Source: Clostridium sp. | GTDB taxonomy: Bacteria; Bacillota; Clostridia; Lachnospirales; Lachnospiraceae | Direction: 5' to 3' | Assembly (NCBI GenBank): GCA_023664775.1 | Contig: JAMPEW010000020.1 | Location: 1-51,502, forward strand | Length of the DNA stretch: 51,502 nt | Part shown: piece by piece, positions 35,980 through 45,565 of the stretch | Layout: every line of letters begins with the position of its first letter | How positions within the stretch are numbered: the first letter of the stretch is position 1 | The notes under the pieces: model-generated | Databases searched by the model: none | The model's input: only the letters and a program-made list of their open reading frames with translations | Told to the model about the DNA's origin: nothing | Made by a program: the position numbers and the translations under genes

Positions 35980-38229
35980 ATGAAAAATCCTCTTAACAAA
36001 AGGTTCCCACGGGAGTTAAAATCCGACTTTGGAAAATATGTTGCCATATTTATATTTGTAACCTTAATGACCGGCTTTGTCTCAGGCTTTCTCATTGCGG
36101 GGGACAGCATGAAAAAAAGCTACAACGAAAGCTATGAAAAATACAATATTGAAGACGGAAATTTTGAGCTTACGGACAAAGCTGAAGGCGCTTTATTTGA
36201 CGCAATGGCTGACGAAGGCATAACGCTTTATGAAAACTTTTACATTGAGGAAAAAACTACTGAGCTTGACAGCACGCTCCGTATTTTTGCAAACCGTAAC
36301 GAGGTAAATCTCATATGCCTCATGTCGGGCGAGCTTCCAAAAGCCACAGATGAAATCGCCATTGACAGGGTTTATGCCAAAAACAACAATTTATCCGTCG
36401 GCGACACAATAACGGCAGGCAGTCATGCACTTAAAATTACAGGCTTTGTTGCACTCTCCGACTATTCCACGCTATTTCAAAGTCCATCAGACATGATGTT
36501 TGACACCGTAAAATTTGGCGTGGGAATTATGACGGCTGACGGCTTTTACAATATGCCGCAAGCCCATATACATTATTCTTATTCATGGAAATATGACCAC
36601 AAACCGGAGGATGACGCCGAAGCAAAGACCATGTCAGAGGACATGCTTCCGGTTCTCGCAGCCAATGCCTCCATAAAGGAATTTATACCTGCCTACATAA
36701 ACCAGGCAATTATTTTTGCAATTGATGATATTGTCAGTGATGGTTCCATGATGCCCATTCTCTTATATATTATTCTTGTAATTATAGCCTTTATATTTGC
36801 AATTCTTACAAACAATACAATTTCAAGGGAGGCAAATGTAATCGGGACCTTACGGGCATCAGGCTACACCAGAGGCGAGCTGATACGGCATTATATCACA
36901 ATGCCAATGCTTATCACATTGATTGCCGCCATTACAGGAAATATTTTAGGCTACACTGTATTTAAGAATATGTGTGCAGATATGTACTATGGCTCATACA
37001 GCCTGACAACATATGAAACAGTGTGGAATGCAGACGCATTTGTAAAGACCACAGTTATTCCGCTTATCATCATTTGTGTAATAAATTTGTATATTCTCTG
37101 GGCAAAATTAAAGCTTTCACCGCTTAAATTTATAAGGCGTGATTTAAGCCGCAAGAAAAAGAAAAAGGCATTCCGTCTTAATACAAAAATTGGTATTATG
37201 ACAAGATTCAGAATCCGTATTATTTTTCAGAATATACCGAATTATGTCACAATAATCATAGGCATGTTCCTTGCAAATGCAATTCTTTTATTTGGTATGG
37301 GGCTTACGCCGATGATGGACCACTACCAGCAGGAAATTATCGACAACATGATTGCCAGGCATCAGTACATACTTAAAATGCCTGTTGAAACGACAAGCAC
37401 AGAAGCGGAAAAATATTGCTCAACCACACTGAAAACGGTTGACGACAATTTAAAGGCTGAGGATGCAACTATTTTCGGAATATCCACAGACAGCAGCCAT
37501 GTTGATATCAGCTTTAAGAATGGTGTATACATTTCCAACGCTTACGCTGAAAAATATAAGCTTAAAGCAGGGGACACGGTTTCACTTTTTAACAGCTATG
37601 AAAACAAAACATACAGCTTTGCCATAGACGGAATATACGATTATCCCGCAGGCATTACGGTTTTTATGGACATGGAGCAGTTCAATGACGCCTTTGATAT
37701 GCAGGAGGGTTATTTCACCGGATATTTTTCAGATGAGGAAATAACGGATATTGACGATACACTGATTGCCGCTGAAATTACTGAGGATGAGCTGACAAAG
37801 ACCAGCAGGCAGCTTACGACAACCTTCAGAGAAATGGCAGGAATGGTTCAGGCTTTTGGAATTGTCTTTTTCATGCTTGTGATATATCTTCTCTCAAGGA
37901 TTATCATTGAGAAAAATGCACAGTCCATCTCCATGACAAAAATACTCGGCTATTCCAATGCTGAAATAAACGGACTTTATATCGCCTCAACAGCAATAGT
38001 GGTCGTGCTTTCAATCATCGTTACGATACCTGTTGTAAACATAGCGATAGCAAAACTAATTCCAATTGCAATGAAAGACTTTTCAGGATATTTCTTCTAT
38101 TACGTTCCATTTGACATTTTTGTTAAAATGGCATTGCTTGGATTTTTGTGCTATGGCATTATTGCATGGTTTCAAACAAAGAAGGTTAAGAAAATTCCGC
38201 TTGACATTGCACTGAAAAATGTAGAGTAG
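35980..38229 (+). CDS. FtsX/MacB-type ABC transporter permease
   Basis: 749 residues with one N-terminal span (YVAIFIFVTLMTGFVSGFLI), a large outside domain (about 55-250), three spans (MMPILLYIILVIIAFIFAIL and two more before residue 380), a further span (ITIIIGMFLANAILLFGMG region), a second outside domain, and a last three-span FtsX unit (about 625-740). Two FtsX-like units in one chain fit the long permeases of Firmicutes. AGGAGG precedes the ATG; it forms an operon with the ATPase. The giant foldback begins 10 bases after the stop and may also act as its terminator. Confidence 0.9.
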   Translation: MKNPLNKRFPRELKSDFGKYVAIFIFVTLMTGFVSGFLIAGDSMKKSYNESYEKYNIEDGNFELTDKAEGALFDAMADEGITLYENFYIEEKTTELDSTLRIFANRNEVNLICLMSGELPKATDEIAIDRVYAKNNNLSVGDTITAGSHALKITGFVALSDYSTLFQSPSDMMFDTVKFGVGIMTADGFYNMPQAHIHYSYSWKYDHKPEDDAEAKTMSEDMLPVLAANASIKEFIPAYINQAIIFAIDDIVSDGSMMPILLYIILVIIAFIFAILTNNTISREANVIGTLRASGYTRGELIRHYITMPMLITLIAAITGNILGYTVFKNMCADMYYGSYSLTTYETVWNADAFVKTTVIPLIIICVINLYILWAKLKLSPLKFIRRDLSRKKKKKAFRLNTKIGIMTRFRIRIIFQNIPNYVTIIIGMFLANAILLFGMGLTPMMDHYQQEIIDNMIARHQYILKMPVETTSTEAEKYCSTTLKTVDDNLKAEDATIFGISTDSSHVDISFKNGVYISNAYAEKYKLKAGDTVSLFNSYENKTYSFAIDGIYDYPAGITVFMDMEQFNDAFDMQEGYFTGYFSDEEITDIDDTLIAAEITEDELTKTSRQLTTTFREMAGMVQAFGIVFFMLVIYLLSRIIIEKNAQSISMTKILGYSNAEINGLYIASTAIVVVLSIIVTIPVVNIAIAKLIPIAMKDFSGYFFYYVPFDIFVKMALLGFLCYGIIAWFQTKKVKKIPLDIALKNVE

Positions 38230-38239
38230 CTTTTATTAG

Positions 38240-38702
38240 AGGGCTGTCGCACTTGCAGGCAGCATAGACTGCTATATGCACGACCTCGTCTCAGTAACAG
38301 TGATGCTAAGAATTGCATGTACGGATAGATATACAGTAGCAAAAAACCGTTTGAAGACGTCGGTACTTGAGTTGGTGCAGGGAATGTCTTATACAGGCAA
38401 CCAAAACACGCTTTCGCTCGTCTCCGACGTAACGGTACTAAAAATTGCCGGTCTAGGCTATCCCTATATAAAAAGGAGTTGCTGGGACCGGCAATTTAAG
38501 TACCGACATCTCCAAACGGTTTTGGTTGCCCGTATAAACATTCTCATGCACCAACTCTTAGTACCGTTACGTCGGAGATGAGCGAAAGCGTGTTTTTTGT
38601 TACTGTATCATCTAATCCGTACAAGGCAATTCAAGCAGCAAAATATACAAATGAGGTTACGTACATATAGCAGTCTATACTGCCTGCAAGTGCGGCAGCC
38701 CT
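38240..38702. repeat. 463-bp giant foldback (long imperfect inverted repeat)
   Basis: The two halves are inverted copies along almost their whole length around a 32-base centre (38454-38485). The outer arms AGGGCTGTCGCACTTGCAGG and CCTGCAAGTGCGGCAGCCCT match nearly perfectly and continue through CAGCATAGACTGCTATATG. Inner arms include GGCAACCAAAAC / GTTTTGGTTGCC and TTGCCGGTC / GACCGGCAA. Inside, two segments are swapped between the arms: a CGCTTTCGCT...CGTAACGGTACT block on one arm faces a shorter ACCG..TC...GGTACTT block on the other, once in each orientation. No long protein frame spans it. It fills the gap between the ABC permease and a convergent small gene. Confidence 0.88.
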
Positions 38703-38724
38703 TTCTTAGTGTGATGCAAAAATT

Positions 38725-38955
38725 TTAATGATGATACCCTTCCATTCTTTTTGTAAAGTCATCAAGCTTGGCTTTCAGCTTTTGGTAATCCTTATCCTTT
38801 AGCTCCCCTTTTTCTTTTAGCTCAGACAGCTTAAGCTCGGCATCTTTCCTTGCCTTAATCGCCAAATCCTTGTAATTATTTTCAAGGTTAATCTGTATAT
38901 CATTAAATAATGCTTCAATTTCCCTGCGTGCCTGTTTTGCATTTTTATCAAACAT
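38725..38955 (-). CDS. Small charged helical protein, unknown
   Basis: 76 residues, nearly all predicted helix with Lys/Glu heptads (RREIEALFNDIQINLENNYK ... KLSELKEKGELKDKDYQKLK), no membrane segment. GGAG precedes the ATG. It lies between the giant foldback and the multi-hairpin element, which ends 19 bases upstream of its start. No family is recognised. Confidence 0.65.
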   Translation of the reverse strand: MFDKNAKQARREIEALFNDIQINLENNYKDLAIKARKDAELKLSELKEKGELKDKDYQKLKAKLDDFTKRMEGYHH

Positions 38956-38973
38956 ATCAAAACTCCTTACTAT

Positions 38974-39114
38974 GGAACATCAGCCCATTCCAAATTTGCT
39001 TTCAGCAAATGTTCCGATTTACTTTGTAAATCGAGAACTCATGGGCTGACTACGAGTCTCAGTGGCTTTGCCACTGGACATACTACATGTCAAGTTTTCA
39101 TAGAAAACTTGACA
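38974..39114. repeat. Multi-hairpin element with crossing pairings
   Basis: Within 141 bases: GGAACAT (38974) can pair with ATGTTCC (39009-39015) and CAGCCCAT (38981-38988) with ATGGGCTG (39041-39048); these cross, as in a pseudoknot. Separate small hairpins are ATTTGC-T..-GCAAAT, GATTTAC-TTT-GTAAATC (39016-39032), CAGTGGC-TTT-GCCACTG (39060-39076), and a perfect 12-bp stem TGTCAAGTTTTC-ATA-GAAAACTTGACA (39088-39114). It lies between the rhomboid gene stop and the small helical gene. Confidence 0.8.
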
Positions 39115-39119
39115 CAATA

Positions 39120-40229
39120 CTAATTCCCATAAAAATTAAATTTCATTCCATGCTTTTCTCCGTAAGCGGTATATACCTCAATAATGGTATCACTTTTTTC
39201 CCTATCATTTGTCAGTACATTGTCACGGTAAATATTTAAAATTACAATTGTGCTGTTTTTCGTATCGACCACAAATCTAAAACGAAGCTCCACTGTATTT
39301 CCCCCTGAGATACAGGTACCCGAAAAATCCACATAATCCTTGCCCTCCTCATCGGTAGGAATTAACGTCCATTTTTCATTGACACAATATTCCTCCAGCA
39401 CCTCTCCAAGCTCTACATCGGGCGCAAATGTAAGGGAACAGCCTTTTACATAATTTATCTTTGTTTCAGGCAGTATAGCCGCTTCGCCGCCAAGATTGGC
39501 AAAATTGATTGCTATTACAGAGATTAAAATTGTTACTGCAACGGCAATCCATTTTTCCATCTGACCTTCCATTTTATCGGCATGAAAAAATTTTGCCATA
39601 ATTACGACAGCGATAAAGCCTGTTATGCCGCCGCCAAAGTGCCCGAAATTATCCACATGCATATTTCTTGCCATTACAGCGTCAATCACAACATAGATTA
39701 TAACGGAAGCGACTGTTATAACTGCCGCATTGCTTCTTGTTATACTGCTTCTCGCAAGATAAAAATTAGAAATATATAAATAAGCTGCTATAATTCCAAA
39801 TATGGCGCCTGACGCACCAATTGAAAAATGGAGACGGTCAGGGTCTATCAAATGAAAACCGAATACTGATAATGCGCCTGAGCCTATGCCTGATAAAAAG
39901 TATATGATTATCATTTTCAATGAGCCGATATATTTTTCAACATCATGTCCAAACAGCCACAGAGAAATCATGTTCATAAGCAGATGTTCAAAATTAAGGT
40001 GCAAAAACATACTGGAAAGAAGCCGTCCGTACTCTCCCATTTCTACCACATATTCATAATTTGCACCGCCGGTTCTTGAAACATTATTCTTTGTGACGCA
40101 TGCCACAAAAACGATAACATTGATAACGATAAGAAAAATTGTGCATATAGGCAGGGTTTCCCAAACGCTCCTGTGATACGTTTTATATGTATTGTCAATG
40201 TCCCGATTGCCGCTTTCAAACTCCTCCAT
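39120..40229 (-). CDS. Rhomboid-family intramembrane serine protease with C-terminal soluble domain
   Basis: 369 residues. The six-helix rhomboid core (about 25-215) has EHLLMNMISLWLFGHDVEK, the catalytic Ser in IGASGAIFGIIAAYLY and the catalytic His in HVDNFGHFGGGITGFI, so the enzyme should be active and cut substrates within the membrane. Unlike minimal rhomboids it carries a further about 130 residues after a last hydrophobic segment (WIAVAVTILISVIAINFANL), beta-rich and probably extracytoplasmic. A frame extends to 40295 into repeat copy C, but GGAGGA precedes the ATG at 40229. Confidence 0.88.
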   Translation of the reverse strand: MEEFESGNRDIDNTYKTYHRSVWETLPICTIFLIVINVIVFVACVTKNNVSRTGGANYEYVVEMGEYGRLLSSMFLHLNFEHLLMNMISLWLFGHDVEKYIGSLKMIIIYFLSGIGSGALSVFGFHLIDPDRLHFSIGASGAIFGIIAAYLYISNFYLARSSITRSNAAVITVASVIIYVVIDAVMARNMHVDNFGHFGGGITGFIAVVIMAKFFHADKMEGQMEKWIAVAVTILISVIAINFANLGGEAAILPETKINYVKGCSLTFAPDVELGEVLEEYCVNEKWTLIPTDEEGKDYVDFSGTCISGGNTVELRFRFVVDTKNSTIVILNIYRDNVLTNDREKSDTIIEVYTAYGEKHGMKFNFYGN

Positions 40230-40246
40230 ACATCCTCCTTCATGAT

Positions 40247-40315
40247 GAACAAAGTGCCTTCGGCACTCTTTATGCTGCCACAACTTTAATGGCACTTTGG
40301 GCGAATCCTAGCAGG
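40247..40315 (-). repeat. Dispersed ~67-bp structured repeat, copy C
   Basis: Best-formed copy of the family (others at 3857 and 16351). CAAAGTGCC (40250-40258) can pair with the adjacent GGCACT (40262-40267, TTC loop) or with GGCACTTTG (40291-40299), giving two mutually exclusive hairpins. It ends 18 bases upstream of the rhomboid start codon. The same gap (40230-40550, 321 bases) also holds two more hairpins and otherwise only the start region of the ABC-F gene. Confidence 0.85.
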
Positions 40316-40361
40316 ATTTTTAATCCTGCCTTATAAGGAAGTTCGGAGAACTTTCTTATAA
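40311..40361. repeat. Two further hairpins next to repeat copy C
   Basis: GCAGGAT-TTTTA-ATCCTGC (40311-40329) and TTATAAGGAAGTTC-GGA-GAACTTTCTTATAA (40331-40361, 13 of 14 pairs). Neither is followed by a strong T-run, so they are not typical terminators. Confidence 0.7.
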
Positions 40362-40550
40362 AAGAACAAAATCTGCCACATAACCACATTTGGGTAATAA
40401 TATGTTTTGTTCAAGTCTATACACCTTAATATAACAGAAATAATAGGAAATGGAAAGAAATTTTACAGTGGCAGGGTTAAGCATTGCAAACAACCCATTT
40501 ATTTGTTAGAATAACCAACGAAATCATTATTTGCAAGGGAGGAAGCTGCC

Positions 40551-42530
40551 ATGCTTCTTGCGTGTCAGAACATAAGTAAATCCTATGGTACAAATCAGAT
40601 TTTATCTGACGTATCATTTCATATAGAGGCAAGAGAAAAAATAGCTATCGTTGGAATAAACGGATGTGGAAAAACCACGCTGCTTAAAATTATCATGGGT
40701 GAGGAAGCCGCAGATAACGGTCAGGTCGTTATCTCAAAGGAGGCAGCCATTGGCTATCTCTCCCAGCATCAGGACATTTCCTTTGACAATACCGTATACG
40801 ATGAAATGCTTGAAACGAAAAAATATATTATTGACATGGAAGCAAAGCTGCGAAGCCTTGAGCACGACATGAAGGAATGTGAGGGCGACAGGCTTGCACA
40901 GATTATGAATACCTACAACAGGGTACAGTCGGAATATGACAGACTGAACGGATATGCCTACAAAAGTGAGATAACCGGCGTATTAAAGGGACTTGGATTT
41001 TCAGAGACGGATTACGGCAGGCATATCAGCACCCTTTCAGGGGGACAAAAGATGCGTATTGCCCTCGGCAGACTCCTTCTTACAAAGCCTGATATTATAA
41101 TACTTGACGAGCCTACCAATCATCTTGATATGCTCTCAACTGCATGGCTTGAGACATTTCTTTCGTCATATGACGGAAGTGTAATTATCGTAAGCCATGA
41201 CAGATATTTCATTGATAAAATTGCAACAAAGCTTGTTGAGATAGATAATACAAAGGCAGCCATTTATCATGGAAACTACTCCTACTATGCAAAAAAACGT
41301 GCCGAGATAAGAGCCTCCCTCATGAAGGCTTACCTAAATCAGCAGCAGGAAATAAAGCATCAGGAGGAGGTTATAACAAAGCTCAAGCAGTTCAACAGGG
41401 AAAAATCTATAAAGCGTGCCGAGAGCAGGGAAAAAATGCTTGCCAAAATAGATGTTTTGGAAAAGCCTGTGGAGGCTGCCTCGGAAATGCGCCTTGCCCT
41501 CACCCCATCCGTTGAAAGTGGAAATGATGTTCTTACAATAAGGGAGCTTTCAAAATCCTTTGGCAGCCACAATTTATTTTCAGCGCTTGACATGGATATA
41601 AAACGAGGGGAACGGGTTTCTCTTATCGGCGGAAACGGAACAGGAAAAACAACAATACTTAAAATAATAAACCGTGTCATACCGAAAGATACCGGAACCG
41701 TAACACTCGGCTCCCGTGTTCGCATCGGCTACTACGACCAGGAGCATCAGGTTTTGTCACTTCACAAAACGATATTTGAGGAAATATCCGATGCGTACCC
41801 TGACATGAACAACACAAAAATAAGAAATGTTCTCGCTGCATTTTTATTTACAGGCGAGGACGTCTTTAAAAAAATTGGAGATTTAAGCGGCGGCGAACGC
41901 GGCCGTGTTTCCCTGGCAAAGCTTATGCTTTCCCCTGCAAATTTCCTTATACTTGACGAGCCTACAAACCACTTAGATATACAGTCCAAGGAAATACTTG
42001 AGGAAGCCCTGAAAAGCTATACGGGAACAGTGCTTGTGGTAAGCCATGACAGATATTTTATCAATTCCGTTTCAACAAGAATTATTGAGTTGAAGGATAA
42101 AAGGCTTTACTCCTTTATCGGCAACTATGATTATTACGAAGCACATAGGGATATTGTTTACGGTTCATCCCCAGAAAATGATATTGCAGCAAAAAGCAAT
42201 ATGACACAAATGCCTTCCATGAAAGCAGCGTTTACGGCAATTACGGATGATGTCATGCCGCAGACAAAAGGCACATCCTCCTCTAAAGAAGAATACCTGA
42301 AAAACAAGGAGGAGCAGGCACGTATCAGAAAGCTCGCAAATGACCTGAAAAGGACGGAAGCAAAAATCGAAGAATTGGAACAAGCAATATCCGACATTGA
42401 TAGTGAGATAAACAATCCTGAAAATGCCACAAACTCCTTTAAACTCGGAGAGCTTTCCTCCCAAAGGGAAAAAATGGACAGCGAGCTTATGGAATTATAT
42501 GAAAAATGGGAGACGCTTAGCAATGAGTAA
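40551..42530 (+). CDS. ABC-F family ATPase
   Basis: 659 residues, two ABC domains in one chain and no membrane segment: Walker A GINGCGKTTLL and GGNGTGKTTIL, signatures LSGGQKMRIALGRLLL and LSGGERGRVSLAKLML, Walker B IIILDEPTNHLD and FLILDEPTNHLD. The linker of about 80 residues (AEIRASLMKAYLNQQQEIKH...) is the tRNA-interaction segment of ABC-F proteins, and the C-terminus (from about 580) is a coiled coil. ABC-F proteins act on the ribosome; some protect against antibiotics, others are housekeeping. The length and tail suggest the YdiF/Uup type, but resistance cannot be excluded. GGGAGG precedes the ATG. Confidence 0.9.
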   Translation: MLLACQNISKSYGTNQILSDVSFHIEAREKIAIVGINGCGKTTLLKIIMGEEAADNGQVVISKEAAIGYLSQHQDISFDNTVYDEMLETKKYIIDMEAKLRSLEHDMKECEGDRLAQIMNTYNRVQSEYDRLNGYAYKSEITGVLKGLGFSETDYGRHISTLSGGQKMRIALGRLLLTKPDIIILDEPTNHLDMLSTAWLETFLSSYDGSVIIVSHDRYFIDKIATKLVEIDNTKAAIYHGNYSYYAKKRAEIRASLMKAYLNQQQEIKHQEEVITKLKQFNREKSIKRAESREKMLAKIDVLEKPVEAASEMRLALTPSVESGNDVLTIRELSKSFGSHNLFSALDMDIKRGERVSLIGGNGTGKTTILKIINRVIPKDTGTVTLGSRVRIGYYDQEHQVLSLHKTIFEEISDAYPDMNNTKIRNVLAAFLFTGEDVFKKIGDLSGGERGRVSLAKLMLSPANFLILDEPTNHLDIQSKEILEEALKSYTGTVLVVSHDRYFINSVSTRIIELKDKRLYSFIGNYDYYEAHRDIVYGSSPENDIAAKSNMTQMPSMKAAFTAITDDVMPQTKGTSSSKEEYLKNKEEQARIRKLANDLKRTEAKIEELEQAISDIDSEINNPENATNSFKLGELSSQREKMDSELMELYEKWETLSNE

Positions 42531-42539
42531 ACAAGCTTG

Positions 42540-43091
42540 CTAAACATCTCCCTGAAACATAAGTGTAAGTATCATTTGTGCTGTTTCGACCATATTTGTG
42601 CTATTGTCCATGCTGCACTTTTGAATGTAACGGAATGCCTCCTCCTCGGATAAGTGATTTCTTTCCATAAGGAGGTATTTTGCATTGCTTATATAATTTT
42701 CTTCCTGCCAGGTCCGCTTGACGGGTTTTTTATTTTTCTTATATCTTCTCTCAACCTGCCTTAGCACCATATCAACGGTACTTATCAGGTCGCCTAATTT
42801 AAGGGGCGTTGAAAGGGACAGTATTCCCGTCCCTGCCGCAGCGACCGCAACCTGTGAGCCAATGAGCACAAGCTCAAAGTTTTTCGGCAGACTTTCCTTT
42901 AAATCAAGATAAAACATATCGCTTAATTTGTATGCACTTAAAACCACTCCCGCATCCATGTTTCCCACTGCCTGCAATGTCATGGCGGCAGTTGAATAGG
43001 CAAACACTTCGTCATAGCCGTGGTTATTAAGTATTCTCTGTATTTTTTTTGCTTCCTCAAGCTTTGGCAGGACTACAATAATTGAACTCAT
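42540..43091 (-). CDS. ANTAR-domain regulator linked to glnA
   Basis: 183 residues. The first about 115 look like a receiver (IIVVLPKLEEAKKIQRILNN) but the acceptor Asp position reads AGVVLSAYKL, so it is a pseudo-receiver. The C-terminal 60 residues (NYISNAKYLLMERNHLSEEE, AFRYIQKCSMDNSTNMVETA) are an ANTAR RNA-binding domain, which acts as an antiterminator. ANTAR proteins encoded beside glnA are typical of Clostridia and control nitrogen genes. GGAGG precedes the ATG; it is 18 bases after glnA. Its end nearly touches the convergent ABC-F gene. Confidence 0.88.
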   Translation of the reverse strand: MSSIIVVLPKLEEAKKIQRILNNHGYDEVFAYSTAAMTLQAVGNMDAGVVLSAYKLSDMFYLDLKESLPKNFELVLIGSQVAVAAAGTGILSLSTPLKLGDLISTVDMVLRQVERRYKKNKKPVKRTWQEENYISNAKYLLMERNHLSEEEAFRYIQKCSMDNSTNMVETAQMILTLMFQGDV

Positions 43092-43109
43092 ACGGCTGCC
43101 TCCGCTTTA

Positions 43110-44435
43110 TTATATGCGATATAAATATTTTGCTATTTCCCAATCGGAAACCTGCTCCAAGTAGCCTCTCCATTCCGTCCTTTTTGCCTTGATATATTTT
43201 TTTACAAGGTCCTCTCCGATTACATCCGTTACAAGGCTTTCATTTTTTAATGCCTCTATTGCCTCACCTAGATTTTCAGGCAGGGACACAATTCCTTTTT
43301 CTTCCTTTTCCTCCTCACTGAGCTTTCTGATATCCTCAACAAGCTCATCAGGTGCAGCTAAATGTTTTTTTATGCCATCCATTCCTGCGGCGATGCAAAG
43401 CGCAAAAACAAGATAAGGATTTGCCGCCGAATCAGGACTTCTAAGCTCAAGCCATGCCCCGCCGTCAGCCATGCTTCCTACATGAATCAGGGAATTTCTC
43501 TGTTTTCTCGACCATGTAACCTCAGACGGTGCCTCAAAGCCCGGCACAAGTCTCTTATAGGAATTGACAAGTGGATTGAACATTGCCGTCATTCCTTGAA
43601 TATGACTTAAAATTCCTGCCATAAAGGATTTTCCAATGTCACTGAGATTACCGTTTTCATCGGAAAATACATTTTGTCCGTCCTTCATAAGCCTCATTTT
43701 AAGGTGCATGCCTGAGCCGTTTTCGTCCATGCGGGGCTTTGGCATAAATGTAGCGTGAAGTCCGTATTTTTTTGCGATTGTGCCGACAGCAGTTTTAAAG
43801 GTCATTATCTTATCCGCAGTTGCAAGGGCATTTTCATATGTAAAATCTATTTCATGCTGTGCCGGTGCAATTTCATGGTGGGAAGATGTTATGACATATC
43901 CCATTTCCTCCATGGAAAGAATGATATCCCTCCTTGTATTTTCTCCCAAATCAATCGGGGAGGTATCAAGGTAGCCAGCTTTTTCATGGGTGAGCGTGGT
44001 AGGAAGTCCATTTTCGTCTGCATGGAATAAAAAGAATTCGCACTCAGGATTTATGAGAAGATTATAGCCCTCCTCCTGTGCCTTATGCACAACCTTTTTT
44101 AATATATATCTTGAGTTTGCCTCGTACTCCGTTCCATCCTCATTGATAACATCACATATAAACCTTGCAACCTTTCCCTGCTGCGGTCTCCACGGAAGGA
44201 TTGAAAATGTATCAAGGTCAGGCCTTAAATAAAGGGGAATTTCCTCCGATTGGGCAAAGCCTGCGATTGACGCAAGGTCAACCATGCATTTATTGTCCAT
44301 TGCGCTTATAACCCTAGTTGCAGGTACGGCAAGATTTTTCAGGTTACCGTACATGTCAGTAAACTGAAGCCTGATAAACTGAACGTCCTCCTCATCTATA
44401 AGCTGCATTATGTGAGCCTTACTGTAATTACTCAT
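43110..44435 (-). CDS. glnA: Glutamine synthetase, type I
   Basis: 441 residues; makes glutamine from glutamate, ammonia and ATP. Family signatures: the N-terminal beta-grasp part (QLIDEEDVQFIRLQFTDMYG), NPECEFFLF and SSHHEIAPAQHEIDFTYENA (metal and glutamate site), FMPKPRMDENGSGMHLKMRL, and ELRSPDSAANPYL. The size fits the GSI-alpha form of Gram-positives. GGAGGAG precedes the ATG. A 149-bp foldback fills the leader only 21 bases upstream. It is followed by the ANTAR regulator. Confidence 0.95.
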   Translation of the reverse strand: MSNYSKAHIMQLIDEEDVQFIRLQFTDMYGNLKNLAVPATRVISAMDNKCMVDLASIAGFAQSEEIPLYLRPDLDTFSILPWRPQQGKVARFICDVINEDGTEYEANSRYILKKVVHKAQEEGYNLLINPECEFFLFHADENGLPTTLTHEKAGYLDTSPIDLGENTRRDIILSMEEMGYVITSSHHEIAPAQHEIDFTYENALATADKIMTFKTAVGTIAKKYGLHATFMPKPRMDENGSGMHLKMRLMKDGQNVFSDENGNLSDIGKSFMAGILSHIQGMTAMFNPLVNSYKRLVPGFEAPSEVTWSRKQRNSLIHVGSMADGGAWLELRSPDSAANPYLVFALCIAAGMDGIKKHLAAPDELVEDIRKLSEEEKEEKGIVSLPENLGEAIEALKNESLVTDVIGEDLVKKYIKAKRTEWRGYLEQVSDWEIAKYLYRI

Positions 44436-44456
44436 ATTCTCCTCCTTCTTTCCATG

Positions 44457-44605
44457 TCAGTTCAGAATATACTTATACACACAACTTGAAAACCGCTTTC
44501 GCTACAGTTGAAACGTAACGGACACTAAACTCGTACTTCATACTCGTTAAGTGCCGACGTTTCAAAATGTTTTTCAAACGTGTGTATAAGTATATTCTGA
44601 ACTGA
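44457..44605. repeat. 149-bp foldback with perfect 26-bp arms in the glnA leader
   Basis: The outer arms (44457-44482 and 44580-44605) are perfect 26-bp inverted repeats beginning TCAGTTCAGAATATAC. Inside, GTTGAAACGTAACGGACACT faces AGTGCCGACGTTTCAAA with a conserved extra TAAC on one side, and CGCTTTCGCT lies on the same side. This inner motif is shared with the giant foldback at 38240. ATGG occurs on both flanks but not exactly abutting the ends, so a target duplication is uncertain. Confidence 0.88.
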
Positions 44606-44635
44606 CCATTTACGTTATCGATATATTTAAATTTT

Positions 44636-45565
44636 TTATGTTATTATGGTTCCTGTCTTTCCCATATATCCTTCATATGCCTTATCTATCTTCGTGATAA
44701 CTGCCCTTCTTCCCGCTCGCTTTTCAACAAAGGAGACAGACGCCTGCATCTTTGGAAGCATTGTATTTTCCTCAAATTCTCCACCTTCAATGTACGTTTT
44801 TGCATCTGCAAGGGAGGTAGCCTCAAGCATGAGCTCCTCCTCCGTCCCATAGTTTACAAAAACATGTTCAACGCTTGTAAGTATAAGCAGCTCGTCTGCA
44901 TCAAGCGCCTCCGCCATGATGCCGCAGGCATAATCCTTTTCTATTACTGCACTTGCTCCCTTTAGCGTTGTTCTTTGCTCAAGGACAGGAATTCCCCCGC
45001 CTCCGCAGGCGATTACGATATGTCCTGCTTCAAGGAGCGTTTTTATTGAATCAAGCTCTATTATTTTACAGGGCTTCGGTGCTGCTACAATTCTTCTGTA
45101 GGCATCTTTCTCTTTTACGACAAAGTTACCCTTTTCCTCCTCAATAGCTGCCTCCTCCTCAGACAGTTCCCTGCCGATTTTTTTAATGGGCTGCGAAAAT
45201 GCATCGTCATACGGGTCAACTACAACCTGCGTAATTACAGTACATACAGGCTTATAGATGCCCTCCTTGAGCAGCTCCGCCCTTATGGCATTCTGTAAAT
45301 CAAAGCCGATGTAGCCCTGACTCATGGCAGAGCATACGGACATAGGGGCACATGTATATTCGGGATGCACCTTTCCAAATTCATTCATTGCCGTATGTAT
45401 CATGCCAATCTGTGGCGCATTACCATGTGTTATTACAAGCTCTGCCCCCTCCTTAACAAGACTTACAATTTTCTTAGCCGTGCTTTTTACCGCCGTCTGC
45501 TGTTCGGGGAGGGTTGTGCCCATGGCTCTGTGTCCAAGAGCAATAACCACTTTCTTTTTTTCCAT
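44636..45565 (-). CDS. arcC: Carbamate kinase
   Basis: 309 residues of the amino-acid-kinase fold: VVIALGHRAM at the start, ELVITHGNAPQIGMI, VVDPYDDAFSQPIKKIGREL (carbamate-kinase hallmark), VIACGGGGIPVLE, and KDYACGIMAEALDADELLIL. It usually makes ATP and carbamate from carbamoyl phosphate in fermentative arginine or purine use, but can run in reverse. It follows carB by 40 bases on the same strand, so it may tune the carbamoyl-phosphate pool; no arcA or arcB is in the window. AAAGGG precedes the ATG. Confidence 0.93.
   Translation of the reverse strand: MEKKKVVIALGHRAMGTTLPEQQTAVKSTAKKIVSLVKEGAELVITHGNAPQIGMIHTAMNEFGKVHPEYTCAPMSVCSAMSQGYIGFDLQNAIRAELLKEGIYKPVCTVITQVVVDPYDDAFSQPIKKIGRELSEEEAAIEEEKGNFVVKEKDAYRRIVAAPKPCKIIELDSIKTLLEAGHIVIACGGGGIPVLEQRTTLKGASAVIEKDYACGIMAEALDADELLILTSVEHVFVNYGTEEELMLEATSLADAKTYIEGGEFEENTMLPKMQASVSFVEKRAGRRAVITKIDKAYEGYMGKTGTIIT

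Follow-up and report, generated by a model that had tools for sequence, protein, structure and literature searches.

The foldback that precedes glnA in this Clostridium sp. genome is probably a non-autonomous mobile foldback of a Lachnospiraceae-wide family, whose members carry a structured core at the tip of a palindrome, and this is the explanation that, taken as a whole, we favour. One subfamily, termed here type B, would spread as DNA by means of IS1182-like ends, leaving target duplications of about 11 bp. Template switching during replication inside the hairpin would give rise to long perfect arms of unrelated sequence and could flip the core, and deletion of the tip would accompany it, as comparisons of the same site between relatives suggest. 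The core would itself be under selection, most likely as a folded RNA bound by a protein, given its asymmetry and the GNRA rule that its loops follow; and the copy before glnA would be a resident of an intergenic gap rather than a dedicated glnA switch. We word this explanation with caution, since an exact flush duplication is missing from 39 of the 54 type B copies and some copy-rich genomes encode a Y1 transposase. Throughout, the window is the whole 51,502-nt stretch of DNA analysed, G000 is its source genome, and G, L and C numbers denote genomes, loci and contigs, respectively.

The glnA-leader foldback and its neighbours

An inverted-repeat search located the foldback at 44456-44606 (151 nt), with repeats of 38 nt at 87% identity (44456-44493 and 44569-44606) whose basal parts, the glnA-proximal left arm at 44456-44482 and the right arm at 44580-44606 (both plus strand), are perfect complements over 27 bp. 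A preliminary description had given perfect arms of 26 bp, a span of 44457-44605 and a position 21 bases before glnA; the perfect pairing and the nearness to the gene stand, with arm length and span as given above and a gap of 20 nt to the ATG. Arms and fold are far beyond chance, so the foldback is real: its stability was -46.2 kcal/mol as DNA (shuffles -14.2, sd 2.8) and -72.6 kcal/mol as RNA (shuffles -31.1, sd 3.7), which corresponds to a z of about -11 in both cases, and none of 200 shuffles was equally stable in either.

The glnA gene (43110-44435, minus strand, Gln-synt_N and Gln-synt_C domains) has downstream of it, as first described, a gene with an ANTAR-domain match (42540-43091, minus strand). 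Upstream of the foldback lies a gene of the amino acid kinase family, assigned by domain match (44636-45565, minus strand), which we take to be a carbamate kinase gene. No movement signature, that is, ends or duplication, was established for the glnA-leader copy, which lacks the TAGGYAATTGCGAAACT ends found in type B and is bordered by a repeat of only 3 bp (CAT). Elsewhere in the window, at 37074-37252, there is a 24-bp inverted repeat (79% identity, 131 nt between the arms).

A core shared with a giant nested foldback

Core copies were scored with R1, a covariance model built from 47 diverse copies (alignment A1). The core of the glnA-leader copy occupies 44482-44585 on the minus strand (78.9 bits, E 2e-24), and its GNRA strand, which is that of the model, is the glnA sense strand. 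It includes the mini-hairpin AGCGAAAGCG (44494-44503, minus strand; GC-GAAA-GC, with a GNRA tetraloop) and the conserved CCGTTACG (44514-44521, minus strand) with a two-base UU bulge, AA on the plus strand.

The second foldback, at 38240-38702 (fold z of -24), is a giant palindrome that starts with AGGGCTGTCGCAC and contains two recognisable cores in opposite orientation, one inside the other. The inner core lies at 38397-38534 on the minus strand (63.0 bits, E 5e-19). Half of the outer core was matched at 38540-38602 on the plus strand, and its other half lies near 38343-38374; its low score of 17.7 bits is explained by the nested copy, which interrupts it. The window thus holds three copies of the core, the number first proposed, of which the third is weak. 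Both foldbacks have the same inner pattern, namely CGCTTTCGCT, then CGTAACGG, opposite AGTGCCGACGT, in which, of the TAAC noted earlier as unpaired, the AA is bulged. That the stems share no obvious sequence is true of these two foldbacks; elsewhere in the family, arms recur among copies of a subfamily. The proposal of a family of foldback elements, with one asymmetric module set in unrelated stems, is borne out by the results below, including transposition marks in one subfamily. Relatives of the giant foldback occur in G000 on contigs C36, C40 and C58, and C57 has one single copy.

A further repeat of interspersed kind, CAGCCCAT...AAATTTGCTTTC...GAACTCATGGGCTGA, was seen by eye at several G000 loci, at about 38975-39060 in the window, at about 1320-1400 of L012, and at L358.

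Anatomy and conservation of the core

Read on the AGCGNRAGCG strand, the core comprises a stem P1, a linker, a bulged P2, an apical hairpin of variable sequence or size termed P3, and, set between P2 and P1, a mini-hairpin. It forms a three-way junction in which P2 is split by a two-base pyrimidine bulge, CCGYUACG facing CGUCGG. In A1, which holds 47 of 49 selected sequences (L220 and L222 were left out), 91.8% of cells were paired against 77.4% after shuffling, 175 cells showed changes on both sides against 55, and the covariation score was 0.396 against 0.133 when shuffled and 0.045-0.125 when slid, thus above all slid controls. The stems therefore covary around a fixed inner core, as the preliminary description had asked. 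At one core pair 14 of 47 sequences are mismatched, in part as an effect of the search pattern, and this mismatch was excluded from the evidence. Since the patterns that yielded most of A1, and the named-genome set described below, fixed CGCTTNCGCT and CGTAACGGTNCTAA, the invariance of those columns is partly imposed; the evidence on the helices rests mainly on the non-fixed columns, and that on the GNRA loop on model matches.

Among 58 R1 matches at other loci (from 48 chosen loci, 3 of the matches being duplicates owing to the overlap of L414 and L429), the mini-hairpin loop was GNRA in 56, its third base being A in 36 and G in 20; the third base is A in all 47 training sequences of R1. Of the remaining two matches, one has an AAAA loop and the other lacks the mini-hairpin. 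Compensatory changes in the two-pair stem of the mini-hairpin were found in 3 of the 56 GNRA matches. Because these loops obey an RNA tetraloop rule, the GNRA strand is read here as the RNA strand.

A short form, which consists of P1, the mini-hairpin and TAAC (CGCTTNCGCT-TAAC) and has neither P2 nor P3, makes up a repeated subfamily of its own. Its pattern occurred in 6 of 37 genus genomes, of which the single matches in G036 and G021 are gene-like sequence; this leaves the short form in G000, G014, G034 and G028 (20 of 30 places read), with most places in G014. Short-form loci include L366, L374, L379 and L387, and in type B copies the short form has duplications, for example of 11 bp at L379 and L387.

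Copy number and spread

The preliminary description had proposed collecting genome-wide copies by the inner motif, and doing so gave further copies in G000, in the genus and in the family. The inner-motif pattern occurs at 10 places in G000; a looser pattern occurs at 14, with up to 34 in genus relatives and presence in 17 of 61 genomes searched, and it gave at least 116 stretches in a database of named genomes. Among the 80 matches listed, labels of Lachnospiraceae, Clostridia or their relatives predominate, and a few others occur, such as Bacteroides sp. and Selenomonadaceae. The other listed G000 copies lie on contigs C4, C9, C12, C29, C36, C40, C47, C57, C58 and C59. With R1, whose counts per genome are lower bounds (at most 108, 20 and 10 candidates were scored per genome at the genus, family and phylum levels, respectively), all 37 genus genomes were positive, with 1-65 copies each and at least 13 in G000. 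In the family, 86 of 200 genomes and 85 of 199 genera had matches, and 114 of the 200 genomes had none under strict filters.

An even sample of the phylum served as a negative control, in which 393 of 398 genomes were empty at E 1e-4, the own-family genome G455 among them; the five positives were four genomes of the own family and G419. This last genome, from another family of the phylum, has 9 R1 matches, and the four copies examined, at L415, L420, L425 and L430, combine mini-loops of GAGA or GCGA with an extended apical arm; they represent either a divergent branch or a horizontal transfer.

This distribution bears on the possibility that these foldbacks are ordinary transcription terminators, similar to each other by chance. 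Some copies, with GGGCTGTCGCAC bases and flanking A/T runs, do stand where relatives have short terminator-like hairpins. However, the asymmetric core is conserved, the phylum scan was nearly empty, and at the 3' base of the glnA-leader hairpin no T-run was seen by eye, the glnA strand running on as ATGGAAAGAAGG. As a sole explanation, terminators are contradicted by the covariation together with the phylum scan, and we find this reading hardly credible.

Rfam 15 gave only tRNA and T-box above the gathering score in the window with 5 loci and in 20 further loci; when 37900-45200 was scanned permissively, no hit had an E under 0.08, and those over a core were only microRNA models at E 8.8-9.8. 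No description of the core family was found in the open-access literature searched. Searches of mobile replicons with the type B query gave no match in plasmids and one weak match in phages, MT839589, and viral contigs had no exact core pattern. The phage match covers 27-100 of MT839589.1, a short human faecal 'Bacteriophage sp.' record, at 79% over 70 nt of the type B core query. The core foldbacks thus appear to be a large, widespread and apparently undescribed family of mobile palindromes in gut bacteria.

Transposition marks in the type B subfamily

Elements of type B measure about 50-290 bp and are bounded by the terminal repeats TAGGYAATTGCGAAACT; they were listed as pairs of TAGGYAATTGCGAAACT 40-320 nt apart with at most 4 mismatches per repeat. 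Exact flush duplications of 9-13 bp were found in 15 of 54 copies, compared with 12 of 5000 control pairs, and were missing in the other 39. Empty sites of two type B copies of G014, at L103 and L091, are clean in G000, and that of L103 also in G036 and G034.

Of 397 family genomes, 45 contain the TAGGYAATTGCGAAACT repeat. An ORF for a DUF772 transposase (454 residues in the examined stretch) has this repeat no more than about 150 nt away in G770 and G809, at loci L459 and L465, where one end of each insertion sequence falls within the examined stretch. The two transposases match DUF772 with 54.2 and 47.4 bits (cut-off 23.1); against the NCBIfam model of IS1182, NF033551, they score 79.7 and 72.2 bits, below the cut-off of 270, and they are therefore called only IS1182-like. 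A decayed relative of the transposase adjoins the terminal repeat of L462. The core is absent from both L459 and L465. Judged from these sequences, the most fitting view of type B would be that of a MITE which belongs to an IS1182-like insertion sequence and also carries the core, and such a transposase probably moves it in trans, a reading in which the match of the ends is observed and the action of the enzyme deduced. Core-less 52-bp type B elements exist at L391, with a 10-bp duplication, and at L408, with one of 11 bp and one mismatch; the core may thus be a passive cargo, and deletion of the tip could explain these two elements. For elements of the GGGCTGTCGCAC type or with other arm types, neither terminal repeats nor duplications were established.

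Candidates for longer, autonomous elements, whose genes were named by eye, were rejected. First, the repeat pairs 4.36 kb apart at L391 and L392 are separate type B copies or remnants that flank an ABC operon; the same ABC transporter operon stands between type B elements or remnants in two species (680-5063 of L391 and 687-5064 of L392). Second, the pair 1.43 kb apart at L013 consists of separate copies or remnants around an FtsY-like gene, with type B directly before and after this gene in G000 (212-363 and 1413-1647 of L013). An autonomous carrier of the core was also sought among the ORFs of 116 loci, where the largest recurrent group (12 loci) was that of ABC ATPases and none of the 25 recurrent groups listed was transposase-like.

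Arms and genomic position

The core stands at the centre of long palindromes whose arm sequence differs between subfamilies. Complementary flanking arms (score of at least 15) were found for 51 of 57 testable R1 matches, against 0.35% of mismatched left-right pairs. A first count of arm mismatches gave no G-U bias (181 against 163, with 478 other mismatches). When isolated mismatches were considered, G-U on the core RNA strand prevailed by 59 to 30, with 43 transversions in 150 copies, and, once redundant copies were removed (95 left), by 38 to 23 with 30 transversions, a weak bias. Selection on the arms as RNA is suggested by these mismatch counts, which are not decisive. By eye, a CGTCC-like sequence precedes the left arm and a CTAGTTTATTGG-like one follows the right arm at L156, L164, L177, L188, L224 and some type B elements, so that conserved structure may reach down to the stem base.

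Of 202 modules, 32 fell in ORFs of a crude caller and 28 had one neighbour missing; among the 142 classified, 50 lay between convergent, 79 between co-directional and 13 between divergent genes. In co-directional gaps the core strand ran along the genes in 46 cases and against them in 33, which is no clear bias. Being palindromic, high in copy number, mostly intergenic, mostly 3' of genes and without clear strand preference, the core could be purely selfish DNA, a single-stranded hairpin read by a transposase as REPINs are by RAYTs. We consider this improbable. The Y1 family (PF01797) that would be expected is absent from G000 and 28 other genus genomes, all of which bear cores (29 of 37), including G036 with 65 R1 matches, G034 with 58 and G026 with 51, and mobilisation by Y1/RAYT enzymes was rejected on these grounds; the 8 positive genomes include G035 (47 matches), G003 (42) and G031 (1). 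Moreover, the GNRA-type loop points to RNA, and the target duplications of type B are of the kind made by DDE transposases.

Comparison of the same sites between relatives

At the glnA site, G014, whose glnA is 98% identical over the compared part, has only a 28-nt hairpin, GTCAGTTCAGA-GTATAT-TCTGAACTGAC, which retains 11 bp at the outer end of each arm, plus the next six bases of the left one. Five other relatives, G036, G034, G010, G028 and G021, have neither the full element nor the short hairpin. The G014 hairpin fits better with a loss than with a state before gain, a ranking that draws on other loci.

The position 20 nt before the start, the GNRA strand in glnA sense and the adjacent ANTAR gene would suit a cis-regulatory RNA of glnA, perhaps tied to the ANTAR protein, along the lines of the effect on glnA first envisaged. 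Target RNAs of ANTAR proteins are tandem hexaloop hairpins with conserved loop bases. Nonetheless, the gene is present but nothing connects the foldback to its product, the other listed G000 copies lie elsewhere, and the full element is missing at glnA in all six close relatives compared, so that the specific link to glnA did not hold up and this reading is very improbable. With only the short hairpin at this site in the closest relative, and nothing of the element in five others, a conserved function at glnA appears unlikely from these comparisons; a local, species-specific effect on glnA may exist. Our favoured reading is that of a mobile resident, which probably stands beside glnA by chance, and it suggests that some of the intergenic 'regulatory hairpins' of these genomes are mobile residents.

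Other loci reveal how such elements change in place. First, before a gene that by eye resembles rsmG, the cores of G000 and G014 have opposite orientations (L012 and L092), with flanks that align and arms changed in step. Second, at one site in three species (L008, L050 and L082) the element is kept, with outer arms that are different yet complementary. Third, at this same site L008 of G000 and L315 of G014 have the base GGGCTTGCC/GGCAAGCCC in common and differ in inner arms and core. Fourth, the tip is lost between L105 and L331 and between L101 and L324; the L105 site has a short direct repeat, CAGGC, and the corresponding locus holds a core remnant in G034 and a nested element in G036. Lastly, in the L067, L048 and L080 groups some relatives have core-less GGGCTGTCGCAC-type hairpins at the same sites.

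Template switching between hairpin strands creates and repairs stems, as described in one paper (PMC8794818), and homogenises arms and inverts spacers, according to another (PMC8604942). Tip deletions, inversion of the core in place and arm changes that preserve complementarity are as this process predicts. Because template switching can explain the covariation of the arms, and of P1, without selection on RNA, arm covariation alone is no proof of an RNA function; conversely, the core stays asymmetric though template switching should erase asymmetry, which suggests selection on the core.

Nesting and a possible invasion of hairpin tips

In all 15 parent-child pairs found with a pattern script, including the triple nest L110, the nested core sits at the apical stem in opposite orientation; these pairs have a common apical sequence, AAGARYTG, and hence are not independent. 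Nesting of this kind raises the possibility, which we judge to be on the unlikely side, that the mobile unit consists of the core plus short arms of its own and inserts into the tips of existing palindromes, be they MITEs of type B, terminator-like GGGCTGTCGCAC hairpins or, in the case of another core, its apical stem. The central position of cores in several unrelated kinds of palindrome, the uniform polarity of the nests, the common base of L008 and L315, the retention of only the base at glnA in G014, and the core-less GGGCTGTCGCAC-type hairpins all speak for it. Against it, the differences at glnA and L105 are equally explained by tip deletion (in the latter case with the CAGGC repeat, the G034 remnant and the G036 nest), the 15 cases may amount to few events given AAGARYTG, and the recurrent ORF groups listed for the 116 loci lack a transposase-like one. 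A bolder version, which we find doubtful, makes the core a mobile element reduced to an RNA-bearing minimum, which would enter DNA hairpins at their tips and would depend for its transport on host replication or on an enzyme that reads its folded RNA. If so, a single polarity of entry would account for the orientation of all nested cores, and the core would ride transposons, terminators and itself, as a bacterial counterpart of SINEs that needs no ends of its own.

Comparison with known systems

On the reading we prefer, namely, mobile foldbacks with a selected core, type B resembles IS1182-like MITEs in its terminal repeats, its 9-13-bp duplications (15 of 54) and the ends it has in common with a DUF772 transposase gene; it differs in that the IS1182-like loci L459 and L465 are without the core, which also occurs in elements lacking TAGGYAATTGCGAAACT ends. 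The attC sites of integrons are palindromes of imperfect pairing, in which extrahelical bases are conserved and stems vary. All three traits recur in the core foldbacks; attC sites also have R and L boxes at which an integron integrase cuts, and in the core foldbacks no conserved RYYYAAC/GTTRRRY boxes were noticed by eye.

Short palindromes in many extragenic copies are also typical of REPINs and REPs with their RAYTs, and REPs lie mainly between convergent and co-directional genes, as described in PMC3116915 and PMC3733652. Unlike REPINs, however, the core foldbacks occur without Y1 in 29 of 37 core-bearing genus genomes, conserve the core at the tip rather than the ends, show duplications in type B, and nest. 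The insertion of IS1397, IS621 and ISKpn1 inside palindromic repeats, treated in PMC1525189, resembles the central position and nesting of the cores, but the core foldbacks have no ORF and the insertion of cores into tips is a candidate only. Finally, covarying structure and a tetraloop that argues for RNA over single-stranded DNA liken the core to the candidate structured RNA STAXI (PMC2864571), whereas the core foldbacks are interspersed, have palindromic arms and lack an Rfam match.

Taken together, the core foldbacks are MITE- or REP-like repeats that carry a structured, RNA-like core, a combination apparently undescribed. They join mobile DNA, RNA structure and template switching, as arms change repeatedly and the asymmetric core is kept, and so provide a natural test for the origin and persistence of perfect hairpins, as well as a probable route to an RNA-binding partner in bacteria that are abundant in the gut.
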